Shown one piece after another: positions 3,147-9,411 of a stretch of 11,188 nucleotides of DNA. Both the position numbers and the translations under genes were made by a program. The DNA comes from a bacterium. Lineage in GTDB: Bacteria > JACRDZ01 > JAJRWM01. Below the pieces are notes generated by a model. The model was not told the origin of the DNA. It saw only the letters and a program-made list of their open reading frames with translations, and did no database searches. The stretch lies in NCBI GenBank assembly GCA_024276815.1, contig JAJRWM010000062.1, positions 1-11,188 on the forward strand. Reading direction: 5' to 3'. Every line of letters begins with the position of its first letter. Position 1 is the first letter of the stretch.

Positions 3147-3389
3147 ATGTCGTTTTCTGTTAACTCATTGAATTCACTGGGAAAGGATTTGTTGTCCATT
3201 GCCGCTACAGTCAGAAACAAGGTCAAAAGGTCCCGGGTTGAACGCGGGCAGTTAGCGCCGGTGCCGGCAGCCAGGAGAGCGGCTCGGCAGGGCAAACAAA
3301 AAGTGTTGCAAGCTATTGCCGGAAAAGCTCAGGAAGGCGACCGCCTGGCTCAGATAGAGCTTAAACACCGGCGCGGCTATTTCAGATAA
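3147..3389 (+). CDS. Small basic hypothetical protein in flagellar operon
   Basis: I do not recognise this 80-residue protein. It begins 25 bases after the flgL stop, with an imperfect Shine-Dalgarno (AAAGGCGG, 3133-3140) 6 bases before ATG, so it is probably co-transcribed with flgL. It is strongly basic in the middle (residues about 25-53: NKVKRSRVERG, AARRAARQGKQK), with an Ala/Lys-rich helix and a C-terminal ending ELKHRRGYFR. The first 20 residues (MSFSVNSLNSLGKDLLSIAA) are Ser/Asn/Leu-rich, reminiscent of the N-terminal tails of exported flagellar axial proteins, but this is only an impression. There is no membrane segment and no cysteine. It could be a small secreted or regulatory flagellar accessory protein; its coding status rests on position, RBS and clean frame. 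Confidence 0.6.
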   Translation: MSFSVNSLNSLGKDLLSIAATVRNKVKRSRVERGQLAPVPAARRAARQGKQKVLQAIAGKAQEGDRLAQIELKHRRGYFR

Positions 3390-3454: not shown

Positions 3455-3904
3455 ATGGAAATCAATACGACCCGTTTTGGCGTCCTGAATATTACTGAGG
3501 ATGAAATTGTTTATTTCCCCGAAGGCTTGGTCGGGTTCAGGGATGTCAAACGCTATATCGTTATCCCCCATGGTAACGCGAACAGTCCTTTCAGTTGGTT
3601 CCAGTCGGTTGACGAGGGCCATCTGGCGTTTGTGATAATCGAACCGCAAGTGTTCTGCTACGGTTACGAGGTTAAGATTTCAAGAGATACGTTGCAGCCG
3701 ATTGAGTTGGACGATATCAGCTTGGCGAAAATATACGTAATTGTTGTCGTCGGCGAGCGTCCCGATGACATGACCGCCAATCTTTTAGGACCGCTGGTCA
3801 TTAACCGGGAAAAAAATATCGGTATGCAGGTGGTGCAGAATACGGACAAATATCATACCCGGCACAAAATAATTGATGAACTCAAGCGAATGGAGGCCAG
3901 GTAA
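3455..3904 (+). CDS. fliW: Flagellar assembly factor FliW
   Basis: FliW is a cytoplasmic beta-barrel protein that binds flagellin. When flagellin is exported, freed FliW binds CsrA and relieves its repression of flagellin translation. The 149-residue product has the family hallmarks in order: EINTTRFG at the start, [11 protein letters not shown] (about 20-30), [18 protein letters not shown], and [12 protein letters not shown] followed by GMQVVQN and YHTRHKI near the C-terminus. Length is normal. GTG 3449 is in frame but only one base from the AGGAG (3443-3447); ATG 3455 has 7-base spacing and gives the canonical N-terminus, so it was chosen. csrA starts 2 bases after the fliW stop, so the two partners are almost certainly translated from one message. 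Confidence 0.95.
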
Positions 3905-3906
3905 CG

Positions 3907-4161
3907 ATGCTGGTACTTACCAGAAAAGCGGATGAGAGCATCATGATTGGCGATAATATCGAGATCGTTGTCGTGGAGATAAAGGGGGACGCGGTAAAAA
4001 TAGGCATCAACGCTCCCAGGAAAATTTCCGTTCATCGCAAGGAAGTATACCAGGCGATCCAGGCGGAAAATATCGCCGCGACCGGCGCTCAGCCTTCTGA
4101 TCTGGAGAAGATCAGCAAGTTTTTTCCTGGTCCAAAAAAGGAAAACAAGGGAGATGGTTGA
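3907..4161 (+). CDS. csrA: Translational regulator CsrA (RsmA)
   Basis: CsrA is a homodimeric RNA-binding protein that binds GGA motifs in hairpin loops of mRNA leaders and blocks ribosome access. The product begins MLVLTRK and contains [11 protein letters not shown] and VHRKEVY. The RNA-contact residues known for the family are present at canonical positions: L4, R6, V42, H43, R44. Asn55, the position reported as needed for FliW binding in Bacillus subtilis CsrA, is also Asn here. At 84 residues it is slightly long; residues about 56-84 form a C-terminal extension with a Lys-rich end, characteristic of FliW-associated CsrA proteins. GGAGG (3892-3896), inside the fliW end, gives 10-base spacing. 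The likely target is the flagellin leader immediately downstream. Confidence 0.96.
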
Positions 4162-4180: not shown

Positions 4181-4208
4181 TAAAGTTACTGTACGGATAA
4201 GCCGATAT
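4181..4208 (+). promoter_or_regulatory. Sigma-28 (FliA/SigD) promoter for flagellin
   Basis: TAAAGTTA (4181-4188) and GCCGATAT (4201-4208) match the flagellar sigma-28 consensus (TAAAGTTT / GCCGATAA, or GCCGATAT for Bacillus SigD). The space from TAAA to GCCG is 16 bases, one more than the usual 15. An A/T-only stretch just upstream (4161-4180) could act as an UP-like element. Transcription should begin near 4214-4217, giving a leader of about 190 bases before the flagellin ATG. Confidence 0.88.
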
Positions 4209-4241
4209 GATTTATGCGGCATTGTCGACAGCATGTTTTTT

Positions 4242-4261
4242 GCTGAGGAAGGAACCTCGGC
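4242..4261 (+). promoter_or_regulatory. Leader hairpin 1 with GGA hexaloop (candidate CsrA site)
   Basis: Arms GCTGAGG (4242-4248) and CCTCGGC (4255-4261) pair over 7 bp with one T-G wobble, leaving the six-base loop AAGGAA (4249-4254). GGA in a hexaloop is the preferred CsrA ligand. It is well upstream of the ribosome site, so it would act as an anchoring site for the CsrA dimer rather than as a direct block. Confidence 0.65.
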
Positions 4262-4265
4262 CATT

Positions 4266-4281
4266 CTACCAGGGAAGGTGG
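4266..4281 (+). promoter_or_regulatory. Leader hairpin 2 with GGA hexaloop (weaker candidate CsrA site)
   Basis: Arms CTACC (4266-4270) and GGTGG (4277-4281) pair over 5 bp with one T-G wobble around the six-base loop AGGGAA (4271-4276). It lies 4 bases after hairpin 1. The short stem makes it the weakest of the four GGA hairpins. Confidence 0.45.
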
Positions 4282-4295
4282 TGAAAAACATCGTC

Positions 4296-4338
4296 GAGTG
4301 GTGTTAAAGGCAACCACTCAAAATGTGCGTAGTCACAT
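4296..4338 (+). other. Leader hairpins 3 and 4 without GGA loops
   Basis: GAGTGGT (4296-4302) pairs perfectly with ACCACTC (4313-4319) around a 10-base loop, and ATGTG (4323-4327) pairs with CACAT (4334-4338) around CGTAGT. Neither loop holds GGA; an unpaired GGGGGA follows at 4339-4344. They may space the CsrA-type sites or stabilise the leader. No T-run follows either, so attenuation by termination is not supported. Confidence 0.5.
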
Positions 4339-4359
4339 GGGGGAAAAATCGCTTGTGTG

Positions 4360-4381
4360 TTACCAGCATGGATGCTGGTAA
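4360..4381 (+). promoter_or_regulatory. Leader hairpin 5 with GGA hexaloop (strong candidate CsrA site)
   Basis: Arms TTACCAGC (4360-4367) and GCTGGTAA (4374-4381) are perfectly complementary over 8 bp, around the hexaloop ATGGAT (4368-4373). The loop and flank (CATGGATG) resemble the ARGGAUG core of the selected CsrA consensus. It lies 26 bases before the flagellin start, a good distance for one CsrA dimer to bridge to the Shine-Dalgarno hairpin that follows. Confidence 0.75.
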
Positions 4382-4385
4382 GTGT

Positions 4386-4405
4386 TAATTTCATGGAGGA
4401 AATTA
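4386..4405 (+). promoter_or_regulatory. Leader hairpin 6: GGA hexaloop over the flagellin Shine-Dalgarno
   Basis: Arms TAATTTC (4386-4392) and GAAATTA (4399-4405) pair perfectly over 7 bp, around the hexaloop ATGGAG (4393-4398). The Shine-Dalgarno GGAGG (4395-4399) is mostly in this loop, 7 bases before the ATG at 4407. CsrA bound to the loop would cover the ribosome site, as established for the second hag site in Bacillus subtilis. The stem itself is AT-rich and would only weakly block ribosomes without protein. Confidence 0.75.
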
Positions 4406-4406
4406 C

Positions 4407-6035
4407 ATGGGACTACTAATCAATCAGAACATCTCTGCGTTTAACGCTCACAGAAACCTGCTTATCACTGACAGCGCGTTAAGCAAATCTTTGGAAAAAT
4501 TGTCGACAGGTCTGCGGATCAACCGTGCGGCGGATGACGCCAGTGGTCTGGCCGTGTCTGAGAAATTAAGAGCTCAGGTCAGAGGTCTTAATCGCGCGTC
4601 GGCGAACGCCCAGGATGGTATTTCCCTGTTGCAGACGGCTGAAGGCGCTTTGAACGAAACTCATTCCATTCTGCAAAGGATGCGTGAGTTGGCCGTTCAG
4701 GCCGCCAACGGAACCTGGACAACCAATGACCGGGTGGAAATGCAGAATGAAGTTGACCAGTTGATTTCTGAAATCGACCGCATCGCTCAAACAACGGAGT
4801 TTAACACCAAGAAGTTGCTTGACGGTACCGCGACGGCGCTTATTTCAACCGATTCGCCAAGAACATTCAAGGGACTGGTTACCGGCAGCGTCGGCGCCGG
4901 CGGGAACTTCAGTATCGTAAAACAGGCTACTTCGGCGGGGCAAATGCAGATCCTGAAATCGGATGTTTTCGTTGTTATCGATTCCTCGGGTAACGTAACC
5001 CAGGCAACCAGCACAACGACTCTGGCCTCAATCAGCCGTTTCCAGGATTTTGGCGTGTTTACCGGCCGCAAAAGCGTCCAGCTTTCGTTGCATCGCTCAG
5101 GCGATCCCACGGAAATCACCCTGACCGGTTCCGATACCTTAAGCGATTTGGAAGGAAAGCTTTCATTAGCTATCGCTAATTCCAACTCCGCTAATGATTT
5201 GAACATGGAAGCTCCTTTAACCGGAACCTGGGATAACCTGGTGGAACTGAGAACCGATGTTCCCGGCGGCGGTACCAACACCACTTATGGAGTAGCCAGT
5301 ACTTCCAGCGTCACCGCTTCCACACTTTGGGTTACCTCGCCGATTCCGGGCGTGGACATCGTGTTTGACGGTGAGGAAGCGTTGCTGAACGCTTTAAGCT
5401 TCATGGAAATCCAGGAAGCTGAAACTCCGGTTTATTCAGTTGTCGCCTATAATATCCATACCGGAGCTACGGTAGGCAGCACATCAACCTCCTCGGCCCG
5501 TATCGAGGGTTTAATCGAGGGTGTAACGCTGGTCTTTGATCCATCGTCGGATATCCAGGTGCAGAACAGGGCTGGTACGGCGCCGGGACTTTCAGTTGGG
5601 ATCAATACCGCTACCGACCGTGAATTTATTCACGTCGCGCCGCGTAACCTGGATTTCCAGATTGGCGCTAACCAGGGTCAGACCCTGGGCGTAACCATTG
5701 GCGACATGGGTTCTACGGCGCTGGGCGTTGACGGAATCCTGCTGGTTAACAGCAAGTGGGCGCAGAACGGGATTACCACGATTAATGACGCTATTAATCA
5801 GGTCTCCTCTGAACGTTCCAAGTTGGGTTCGTTCCAGAATCGCCTGGAACACACCATCAAAAACCTGGGCGTTCAGTCTGAAAACCTGGCCGCCAGCGAA
5901 TCGCGAATTCGCGATCTGGATATTGCGAACGAGATGATTAGCTTCACTCGGAACCAAATCCTGATGCAATCCGGCGTCGCTATGTTAGCTCAGGCTAATC
6001 AGCTACCTCAGATGGTCTTACAGTTGATCGGGTAA
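4407..6035 (+). CDS. fliC: Flagellin (filament subunit)
   Basis: This is the main filament protein, 542 residues, exported by the flagellar type III system. Residues 1-140 are the conserved D0/D1 N-terminus: [58 protein letters not shown], then [13 protein letters not shown] and [10 protein letters not shown]. Residues from about 445 to 542 are the C-terminal D1/D0 end, with [33 protein letters not shown] and [16 protein letters not shown]. The middle (about 145-420) is a variable Ser/Thr-rich surface region that I cannot classify. No cysteine is present. It has its own sigma-28 promoter and a long hairpin-rich leader suited to CsrA control, and is followed by a strong hairpin. The name hag would serve equally well. 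Only one flagellin gene is in the window. Confidence 0.97.
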
Positions 6036-6557: not shown

Positions 6558-7340
6558 ATGGCCAGTGAGTTCAAATTGAGCGGCTTGGCGTCCGGCGCTG
6601 ATACCCAGGCGATGATCGACGCCATGATGGCCGCGAAACGGGTTCCCATCACCAGGCTTGAGCAAACCAAGGAAAAACTGGGTTTTGAAAAAGAAGCTTT
6701 CCGAAGCGTCAATCTGTATCTGACCACCTTGCGGACCAGTCTCGACGCGCTCAAACTCGAATCCACATTTTTAAAGAAAAACGTGACTTCCGGTAACGAA
6801 AATGTCGTTACCGCGAGCGCTGATACGACCGCTCAACCGGGCGACCTTCTTTTAAGCAATATTACTCTGGCCACGGCGACCAGAGTTTCAAGCCTGGCGG
6901 TCTTGAATGATAACCCGGATACGGCCGCGGTCAAACAAAGTTCGTCGGCTGTCGTGACGGGAGCGGGATATGGCGGCAGCGGCGTACTGGACACCAGCCA
7001 AACCTTTACCAACGCCGGTTTTGACGGCCAGATTCATAACGGTACTATTACCATAAACGGTGTTAAATTTACCATCAACAAAGATACCACGACCATCGAT
7101 GAATTTATGGGGGAAGTGAATAACAGCGCGGCCGGTGTCTCGATCTCATACAGCGCTATCGACGATAAGTTCACTCTTACCTCGAATGACACCGGTTCAG
7201 CCGCCGCCATCGCCATCAGCGACTTTAATACTGATTTCTTTACTGAAGCCAAGATCGCGATTACTTCAACTACATATGGCGCCGGCACGATTAACCCCGA
7301 TAAAACATTAGCGGAAAATACTTTTCCCCTGGTTCCCTGA
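6558..7340 (+). CDS. fliD: Flagellar filament cap FliD, N-terminal part (frameshifted gene)
   Basis: FliD (HAP2) forms the filament cap that folds incoming flagellin. This frame holds the N-terminal part: residues 1-75 are the FliD D0/D1 start (FKLSGLASGADTQAMIDAMM, then RVPITRLEQTKEKL and a coiled-coil stretch). Residues about 160-222 form an IN-type module (GTITINGVKFTINKDTTTID with a FMGEVNNSAAGVSI helix). The frame ends early at TGA 7338-7340 after NTFPLVP. The rest of FliD continues one frame over, from just after a TTTTCCCC run at 7322-7329. Joined there, the protein would be about 739 residues. AAGGAGG (6543-6549) is 8 bases before ATG. Whether the shift is real, an assembly error or recoded is unknown. 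Confidence 0.9.
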   Translation: MASEFKLSGLASGADTQAMIDAMMAAKRVPITRLEQTKEKLGFEKEAFRSVNLYLTTLRTSLDALKLESTFLKKNVTSGNENVVTASADTTAQPGDLLLSNITLATATRVSSLAVLNDNPDTAAVKQSSSAVVTGAGYGGSGVLDTSQTFTNAGFDGQIHNGTITINGVKFTINKDTTTIDEFMGEVNNSAAGVSISYSAIDDKFTLTSNDTGSAAAIAISDFNTDFFTEAKIAITSTTYGAGTINPDKTLAENTFPLVP

Positions 7341-7378: not shown

Positions 7379-8776
7379 GTGCCCTTTTCCTTCAATATTC
7401 TGAATGATACTCTTAATGACGTAATCGACGCGGTCAACAGTTCCGACGCCGGGGTCACCATGTCCTATAACACGGTAGCCGACAAACTGACGTTAACCAA
7501 CAACTCGACCGGCGACAGCACAATAAAGCTCGAGGATGTTTACGGTAATTTCCTGGACGCGACTAATGTTCTGGACGTTACCCGGGGCAACATTTCAACC
7601 AACGTGCAGACCGGTAACGCCACCATCAGCGCGACTCTGCGAAGCAATACGGCGGTTAACGAAACGTATAACATTGTTTTCGGCGCCGGCGGTCTTACTT
7701 ATGATATTGTTCGTGATTCAGACAGCGTAACCATCGCCTCGAATTTAACCTATACTTCAGGCTCGCCGAATTCATTGAACATCGACGGGGTGACCTTTAC
7801 CATCACGGACGGCGTCGGCGCTCCGGCTCTGAATGATGTCTACCAGGTAACAATCGCCAACAATCCGAATCCGACTCCGGACGCGACCGCTTACCATGCC
7901 GGGACAGACGCTCAATTTGACTGGAATGGCGTCACGATGACCGAAGCGTCCAATACTTTTACCAAGGATGGTATTACGGTGAATCTCAAGGAAGATTACA
8001 GTTCAGGGAATATCTTGTTGAAGGTTACCAATGATACTTCGGACGCGTCGGCGGCGATCAGTGATTTCGTGGAAAAATATAACAACCTGGTTACGCTGAT
8101 TTCTCCCAAGATTCTGACCGGCGAACAGAAGGTTTATTTGAAGCCGCTGACCGAGGATGACAGAGTAAGCATGACTTTCGCCGAGACGGATGAGTATGAG
8201 AGTAATTACAAACTCTATAATATTACGGAAGCAATCAGGAAAGAAAGTTCTCTGAACCGGTTGAGGACGTCTTTGAGATCAACCATTTTCAGCACGGTTG
8301 ACGGTTTATCCACTCAGTTTGACCGCTTAAGCTCAATTGGCATATCCACCGGGGCGGTTGGGATATCGGTTGAGCAGGCCAAAAAGGGTATGCTGGAAAT
8401 AGATACTGACGCTTTGAACGCGGCGCTGGAATCCGATCCTGAAGCTGTTTTAAAATTGTTCGCGAACGATAAGGATTTAACCTCATCGTCCTCGGACAAG
8501 GATGGCATTGCCCGTCAGTTGATTGACAAAATAAATTCAGCGGTCAGTTACCGGGGATTCATTGAAAGAAAGGTGGTTGCCGGCGGCAGTATTGATCAGC
8601 GTCTGGCCGATGTTAACAGTGAAATCGAGAAATTTGAGGATCGAATGGCGCAAATTGAAGAACGTCTGGTGCTTGAATTTGCCAACATGGAGACTATTTT
8701 AAGTAATTTAAACTCTCAAAGTCAATGGCTTGCGGGCCAGCTCAGCGGCCTGCCGAAAGCGGGTGCTAAATCATGA
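7379..8776 (+). CDS. fliD: FliD, C-terminal part (continues after frameshift)
   Basis: This frame is open from 7304 and is in the FliD sense from about 7325 (TCC CCT GGT...), where it directly continues the broken upstream frame. GTG 7379 is only a nominal first start with no Shine-Dalgarno, so independent translation is unlikely. It opens with a second IN-type module (FEISFKINDVPFSFNILNDT, then DVIDAVNSSDAGVTMSY). A segment resembling FlgK-type beta domains follows (YNIVFGAGGLTYDIV...LNIDGVTFTI). The rest is the FliD C-terminal domain: ISDFVEKYNNLVTLI, TVDGLSTQFDRLSSIGI, KKGMLEIDTDALNAALESDP and a final coiled coil IEKFEDRMAQIEERL ending NLNSQSQWLAGQL. It ends in an ATGA overlap with the next gene. 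All key C-terminal features are intact, arguing against long-standing decay. Confidence 0.9.
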   Translation: MPFSFNILNDTLNDVIDAVNSSDAGVTMSYNTVADKLTLTNNSTGDSTIKLEDVYGNFLDATNVLDVTRGNISTNVQTGNATISATLRSNTAVNETYNIVFGAGGLTYDIVRDSDSVTIASNLTYTSGSPNSLNIDGVTFTITDGVGAPALNDVYQVTIANNPNPTPDATAYHAGTDAQFDWNGVTMTEASNTFTKDGITVNLKEDYSSGNILLKVTNDTSDASAAISDFVEKYNNLVTLISPKILTGEQKVYLKPLTEDDRVSMTFAETDEYESNYKLYNITEAIRKESSLNRLRTSLRSTIFSTVDGLSTQFDRLSSIGISTGAVGISVEQAKKGMLEIDTDALNAALESDPEAVLKLFANDKDLTSSSSDKDGIARQLIDKINSAVSYRGFIERKVVAGGSIDQRLADVNSEIEKFEDRMAQIEERLVLEFANMETILSNLNSQSQWLAGQLSGLPKAGAKS

Positions 8777-9411
8777 AACTATTCATAAACGAGGAACTAC
8801 AGGAAACGCCGGCCTATGATAATAAATCCCTGCGGGAGATTATCCTGCTGATAGAAAAAGACAGGATACCGAAATCGGAAGTTATTACTACGATTAAGTT
8901 AAACGGCGTTATTTTGAGTATGGAGGACGAAAAGAATATCGCCGCCAATTATCCGGTGGAAAAGATTGAGTCTTTGGAACTGCTGTCGGCCAATCCCAAC
9001 GATTTAATGCTTGAGGGTCTTGGTGACGCTCGTGATGTGCTGACAAATTTGGTTGAGCATATCGCGGCTGTTATTGACTTGTTGCGGCAGGGTGATATTA
9101 ACAAGGGTAGCGAGAAGTTTCAGAGCTGTTTGGGAATAATGCAGTGGTTTAACGAACTGCTTGGTTATACGACCAAGTTCGCCAAGATTGACTATAGTCA
9201 TATTACCTGGCAGGAAGACCGTTCGGTTGCCGAGTTGAACCTGAAACTTCTTAATATATATGGCGACATAACCGAAGCTCAGCGCAACAATGACTGGATT
9301 AGTTTAAGCGATATTCTGGAGTATGAGTTTATTCCGGTTATGCAAGCCTGGATTAAGCTGTTGCCGGTTTTGTTGGATTACATAAAAAGTAAAACGGGCA
9401 AGGCTAATTAA
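8773..9411 (+). CDS. Unknown 212-residue protein between fliD and fliS; possible flagellar chaperone
   Basis: I do not recognise this protein. Its ATG overlaps the fliD stop (ATGA at 8773-8776) and there is no good Shine-Dalgarno, so translation is probably coupled to fliD. The first ~72 residues look like a small alpha/beta domain: strand KLFINEEL, helix SLREIILLIEKDRI, strands ITTIKLNGVILS and IESLELLSA. Residues about 82-212 look all-helical (DARDVLTNLVEHIAAVIDLL, then FQSCLGIMQWFNELLGY, and SLSDILEYEFIPVMQAWIKL). No signal peptide, membrane segment or catalytic motif is seen. In enterobacteria the FliD chaperone FliT is encoded next to fliD and fliS, so a FliT-like role is a reasonable guess from position and helical content, not from sequence match. 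Confidence 0.85.
   Translation: MKLFINEELQETPAYDNKSLREIILLIEKDRIPKSEVITTIKLNGVILSMEDEKNIAANYPVEKIESLELLSANPNDLMLEGLGDARDVLTNLVEHIAAVIDLLRQGDINKGSEKFQSCLGIMQWFNELLGYTTKFAKIDYSHITWQEDRSVAELNLKLLNIYGDITEAQRNNDWISLSDILEYEFIPVMQAWIKLLPVLLDYIKSKTGKAN

Follow-up and report, generated by a model that had tools for sequence, protein, structure and literature searches.

The window analyzed here, an 11,188-nucleotide stretch of bacterial DNA, holds a flagellin gene whose leader is predicted to fold into a series of hairpins, four of which present GGA in a six-base loop. Two of these lie next to the start codon (the proximal pair) and two lie farther upstream (the distal pair). CsrA seated over a Shine-Dalgarno sequence blocks ribosomes, and FliW releases CsrA. 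The locus raises two questions: whether its flagellin leader belongs to the CsrA-repressed hag/flaA type, and what a second pair of sites would add to such a leader.

The csrA, fliW and flagellin locus

Genes in the window run in the order flgK, flgL, a small DUF6470-like ORF, fliW, csrA, flagellin, flaG, fliD (in two frames), an unknown ORF and fliS. Pfam matches place csrA and fliW directly upstream of the flagellin gene, as the initial annotation had said (Table 1), and the genome holds one copy of each. Among solved structures, both products are closest to their counterparts in 5dmb, the crystal of the CsrA-FliW complex. The CsrA encoded here has a C-terminal extension as in FliW-regulated CsrAs, carries K at position 7, and retains L4, R6, V42 and R44, the RNA-contact residues of CsrA. 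A sigma-28 promoter, also claimed in the annotation, was recovered as a pattern match between csrA and the leader, and its position puts all four GGA hairpins inside the flagellin transcript. The same motif is found upstream of other flagellins, including the paralogue L098 of the same genome.

Three further observations concern the neighboring genes. The fliD gene is split, with FliD_N in ORF 6558-7340 and FliD_C in ORF 7379-8776 (the frames overlap at 7304-7340), which reflects either a frameshift or an assembly error. The 80-aa ORF that separates flgL from fliW (3147-3389) aligns with just positions 65-96 of the DUF6470 model, which is 178 aa long, and by that match appears to be a shortened relative. 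The 212-aa ORF at 8773-9411, between fliD and fliS, has no match in Pfam or NCBIfam.

Table 1. Features of the flagellin leader and its flanking genes, in window coordinates.
Feature	Position	Strand	Details
fliW, CsrA antagonist	3455-3904	+	149 aa; PF02623 E 1e-37; matches FliW of 5dmb, E 3e-22
csrA	3907-4161	+	84 aa; PF02599 E 5e-27; best PDB match 5dmb_D over residues 2-71
Sigma-28 promoter	4181-4207	+	TAAAG...GCCGATA; pattern match; transcription start expected near 4214
Possible closing helix	4233-4241 with 4283-4291	+	9 bp; pair probability about 0.62
Distal GGA hairpin 1	4242-4261	+	7 bp; loop AAGGAA; G-C closing pair
Distal GGA hairpin 2	4266-4281	+	5 bp; loop AGGGAA; C-G closing pair
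Hairpin between the two pairs	4295-4318	+	GAGTGGT...ACCACTC; loop GGC, not GGA; stable; MFE and centroid
Long-range helix GUAGUC/GACUAC (predicted)	4329-4334 with 4411-4416 (flagellin codons 2-4)	+	P 0.83-0.98
Proximal GGA hairpin 3, standard upstream CsrA site (predicted)	4360-4381	+	8 bp; loop AUGGAU
Proximal GGA hairpin 4, over Shine-Dalgarno GGAGG	4386-4405	+	7 bp; loop AUGGAG
Flagellin, regulated gene	4407-6035	+	542 aa; PF00669 E 2e-48, PF00700 E 1.5e-29

An exhaustive scan for stems of at least 5 bp found in the leader four hairpins whose hexaloop has GGA as its third to fifth bases, at coordinates identical to those of the annotation and with the last covering the Shine-Dalgarno sequence. 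The rest of the 11 kb window has just two further such hairpins on the plus strand (5908 and 10701; both with loop CTGGAT and within ORFs) and none on the minus strand. The two GGAs are 22 nt apart in the distal pair and 25 nt apart in the proximal pair, and the gap from one pair to the other is about 97 nt. Each of the four loops conforms to ANGGAN, which CsrA/RsmE favors. The closing pair is C-G, as in CANGGANG, in three of the four; the exception is hairpin 1, whose G-C is the less usual form, C-G closing 68 of 92 upstream proximal sites in the surveyed leaders described below.

Such clustering is rare by chance. When the leader was shuffled 20,000 times with its dinucleotides preserved, two hairpins with stems of at least 5 bp arose in 4 shuffles, and three or four in none. 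The leader folds at -70.7 kcal/mol, whereas its shuffles average -53.4 (z -4.15). Hairpins 1 to 4 have mean helix probabilities of 0.99, 0.75, 0.96 and 0.87, and in the full-leader ensemble the GGAs are unpaired with P 0.83-1.0. The distal domain alone folds just modestly better than its shuffles (z -1.5). The annotation had also read two hairpins between the pairs. One of these stands as a stable structure, with GGC and not GGA in its loop; the other, at about 4324-4352, likewise lacks a GGA hexaloop and has competing folds, its GTAGTC arm pairing better with the GACTAC of the flagellin coding region than inside the hairpin. The predicted long-range helix that results surrounds the proximal pair and the start codon. 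Upstream, the closing helix could possibly seat both distal hairpins on one junction, to judge from its modeled pairing.

The proximal pair among surveyed flagellin leaders

The survey comprised 241 non-redundant 250-nt flagellin leaders from many phyla, several hundred genomes having been searched, and sites were called by energy as hexaloop hairpins with an A.GGA loop at -3 kcal/mol or lower. No site was called in 73 leaders, one in 112, two in 48, three in 6 and four in 2; positions pile up at -40 to -21 (111 sites) and -20 to -1 (52 sites) and are sparse elsewhere. Shuffled controls (775, made from an earlier set of 155 leaders) gave no site in 738, one in 35 and two in 2. One or two sites are thus usual for a flagellin leader, which agrees with the published hag, flaA and fliC leaders (PMC7652899, PMC4894983, PMC11898703). 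Most surveyed leaders have such hairpins at about -38 and -13, and the proximal GGA-GGA spacing in leaders other than ours is mostly 21-30 nt. Among genomes with both a flagellin leader and a csrA call, at least one proximal hairpin occurs in 48 of 59 with csrA and in 3 of 8 without (Fisher p 0.016), an association taken as supporting evidence only, because the csrA-less group is small and some genomes are incomplete.

Stems of this kind are conserved as structures. Across 154 leaders they keep pairing while all four Watson-Crick pair types occur. In 92 leaders chosen on the ANGGA motif alone, with the stem playing no part in the choice, the first three positions of the upstream-site stem are paired in 89-90%, again with all four types, whereas sliding the 3' side by 1-4 bases leaves 9-52% paired. 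A set of 25 two-site leaders gave a covariation score of 0.65, compared with 0.19 when shuffled and at most 0.20 when slid; the motif-selected test is the cleaner of the two, since these 25 leaders were selected on stem energy. The annotation had made its reading depend on compensatory change in the stems of homologous leaders, and for the proximal pair such change was seen. A covariance model (R1) built from the 25 leaders, all of other genomes and holding none of this genome's sequence, gives its top match of the whole genome at 4360-4406, with 40 bits and, in the window, E 6e-8. Its other matches to pairs in the genome are two weak ones, both at chance level and one of them inside an ABC-transporter ORF (L193).

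The leader of this locus therefore has a GGA loop over the flagellin Shine-Dalgarno sequence, a second GGA hairpin 25 nt upstream at dimer-bridging distance, a fit to the consensus structure of other leaders, and csrA and fliW adjoining upstream in the same genome. It differs in site number, with four sites here against the two typical of the studied hag, flaA and fliC leaders, a count that is common and not strictly defining, so that the leader is a variant of the CsrA-repressed flagellin leader and is not barred from membership. As judged from its sequence, the proximal pair is an ordinary hag/flaA-type CsrA leader, with CsrA binding expected from the protein and RNA families. The Bacillus subtilis hag leader is alike in having one site over the Shine-Dalgarno sequence and one upstream (BS1, BS2), in a genome with csrA and fliW, a FliW circuit and a C-terminally extended CsrA; unlike hag with its two sites, the present leader has two more hairpins at dimer spacing, which precede the proximal pair by about 97 nt. 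The Campylobacter jejuni flaA leader likewise has two hexaloop hairpins with ANGGA, spaced 21 nt apart, of which the second covers the RBS, and its message titrates CsrA (PMC4894983), but that leader is 45 nt long and thought to bind one dimer, whereas ours runs to about 190 nt with two pairs.

The annotation had inferred that the hairpins are CsrA sites, a prediction that is well supported by the proximal position, the compensatory stems, the association with csrA, and the neighboring csrA-fliW genes with their RNA-contact residues. It is highly improbable that the hairpins are instead a riboswitch-like aptamer, another structured element or chance structure. Nothing was found in support of that reading, and it has to contend with the position, loop consensus and spacing of the hairpins, the adjoining csrA-fliW genes, the recurrence of such sites across phyla and the covariance-model match. 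No Rfam family matched, and a riboswitch or other known RNA was rejected at thresholds as loose as E 1.

The distal pair

This leader is alone among the 241 in having two strong pairs with dimer spacing. Its nearest counterpart is in the same genome. The flagellin of paralogue L098 is 88% identical to the window flagellin at its N-terminus, and at a looser threshold its leader shows distal GGAs at -218 and -195, a spacing of 23 nt, in the stretch that follows the gene's own sigma-28 promoter. Two of its hairpins are weak, namely the second distal one (-2.4 kcal/mol, with 2 bp next to the loop) and the one over the Shine-Dalgarno sequence. The two leaders cannot be aligned upstream of the proximal sites, so the common distal pair rests on layout and not on homology. 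R1 gave just a partial match to the distal pair (8.9 bits), its second hairpin being shaped by the Shine-Dalgarno sequence. Orthologous leaders for distal-pair covariation were sought in the four genomes of the phylum in the searched set and none was found: in two of them neither csrA nor a flagellin gave a match, and in a third (G002) no flagellin follows csrA. A version of the distal pair is shared by just the one paralogue, L098.

Another phylum offers looser parallels. L243 has a distal pair at 33 nt and L136 has four scattered sites; both come, together with L249, L231 and L239, from one other phylum. Extra distal sites thus exist elsewhere, seldom, and are usually not paired. In this phylum, around G279, we observed long leaders with extra distal GGA hairpins and up to four sites (L136, L249, L231, L239 and L254); for most of the flagellins with long leaders there, a sigma-28 promoter is in view. 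The upstream hairpin of L069 was rejected as an extra site, since it lies upstream of the sigma-28 promoter.

The four flagellin genes of the genome carry four sites (the window gene), two to four with two of them weak (L098), two (L100) and none (L099). The L099 gene (G000:C200, start 2317, minus strand) has the Shine-Dalgarno sequence AAGGGGG, with no GGA, and no CsrA-type hairpin, and may for these reasons escape CsrA control. The series suggests that leader differences alone may place the paralogues under graded control by CsrA.

Several leaders of Escherichia coli also collect CsrA sites, with six in pgaA, up to four in cstA, and four each in csrA and iraD (PMC7652899). They resemble the present leader in placing four or more sites in one mRNA leader and differ in that they are not flagellin leaders, act without FliW and are antagonized by the CsrB/C sRNAs. 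Three E. coli messages provide precedents for CsrA acting at the distal pair on something other than the Shine-Dalgarno sequence: on transcription through Rho access (pgaA), on RNA decay through RNase E protection (flhDC) or on a short upstream ORF (iraD) (PMC7652899). We consider such action improbable here. Two short ORFs, at 4233-4307 and 4323-4388, do overlap the hairpin pairs, but no ribosome-binding site is visible for either, and ORFs of such size often arise by chance; the sole terminator-like match is hairpin 3, with a poor T tract. The two ORFs encode 24 and 21 aa, both end in Cys-stop, and are probably chance occurrences. Translation of these ORFs was rejected for want of a ribosome-binding site, as was an intrinsic terminator or attenuator, for which hairpin 3 with its weak T tract was the only candidate.

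It is also unlikely, though less so, that only the proximal pair works and that the distal hairpins are neutral or serve message stability at the 5' end. One or two sites are all that most flagellin leaders have, the distal pair of L098 is weak, and Clostridioides difficile needs only the Shine-Dalgarno site though two are predicted (PMC11898703), so that the presence of a site does not prove its use. Set against this, two strong ANGGAN hexaloops arose in the distal half in just 9 of 50,000 shuffles, and the layout recurs in L098.

How two site pairs may work

We consider it reasonably probable that this is a CsrA-repressed hag/flaA-type flagellin leader with an added second pair of sites; the function of the distal pair is a guess. 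The added-pair reading is favored by the excess over shuffles, the accessibility of the GGAs, the R1 match, the spacings, the single-copy csrA-fliW genes, the association with csrA and the L098 layout, and it is weakened by the G-C closing pair of hairpin 1, the z of -1.5 for the distal domain, the weak distal hairpin of L098 and the C. difficile precedent. A CsrA dimer can bridge two sites that lie 10 to 63 nt from each other, and does so best at distances above 18 nt (PMC7652899); the 22- and 25-nt spacings make it fair to expect two dimers; the gap of about 97 nt makes bridging across the pairs unlikely.

From the families involved, we infer CsrA binding and a FliW circuit that might operate as follows. 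One CsrA dimer would bridge hairpins 3 and 4, cover the Shine-Dalgarno sequence and keep ribosomes from binding; at low levels of cytoplasmic flagellin, FliW would be free and would remove CsrA, and translation could start. A second dimer may sit on hairpins 1 and 2, where it would raise total CsrA occupancy and the local CsrA supply per message, thereby tightening repression, make the FliW-controlled release steeper, and also titrate CsrA off other targets. Our favored guess for the distal dimer is this combination of tighter, steeper repression with CsrA titration. The annotation had suggested a graded switch; that reading is no likelier than a steeper switch or a CsrA sponge, with the distal function a guess in each case.

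Titration might even be the main role of the distal pair, the abundant flagellin message drawing CsrA off other flagellar or metabolic mRNAs with little self-repression. We regard this as rather unlikely. The flaA leader does titrate CsrA in C. jejuni (PMC4894983), the genome has a single csrA gene, and the distal pair lies beyond the 63-nt bridging range and so need not act on the Shine-Dalgarno sequence; however, no relieved target was identified, and the R1 genome scan gave no other convincing pair. The RsmZ/CsrB sponge RNAs also gather several GGA hexaloops on one RNA and load several dimers there, but they are free non-coding RNAs, whereas these hairpins are part of a coding message. A stand-alone CsrB/RsmZ-type RNA was rejected, with no Rfam match and no convincing terminator before the flagellin ORF.

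Multi-site CsrA leaders in E. coli and two-site flagellin leaders are already known; the literature searched contained no flagellin leader with two dimer-spaced pairs, and such leaders are rare in our survey. We tentatively propose that this flagellin leader loads two CsrA dimers on its two hairpin pairs, yielding a steeper, two-step FliW-CsrA-flagellin switch or making the message a CsrA sponge, as a lineage-specific device common to two paralogues of one little-sampled phylum. In B. subtilis, flagellin, FliW and the CsrA dimer stand at nearly 1:1:1 (PMC6529632). Two dimers per message would alter the arithmetic of this homeostat, and the number of sites in the RNA could be a means of tuning it.
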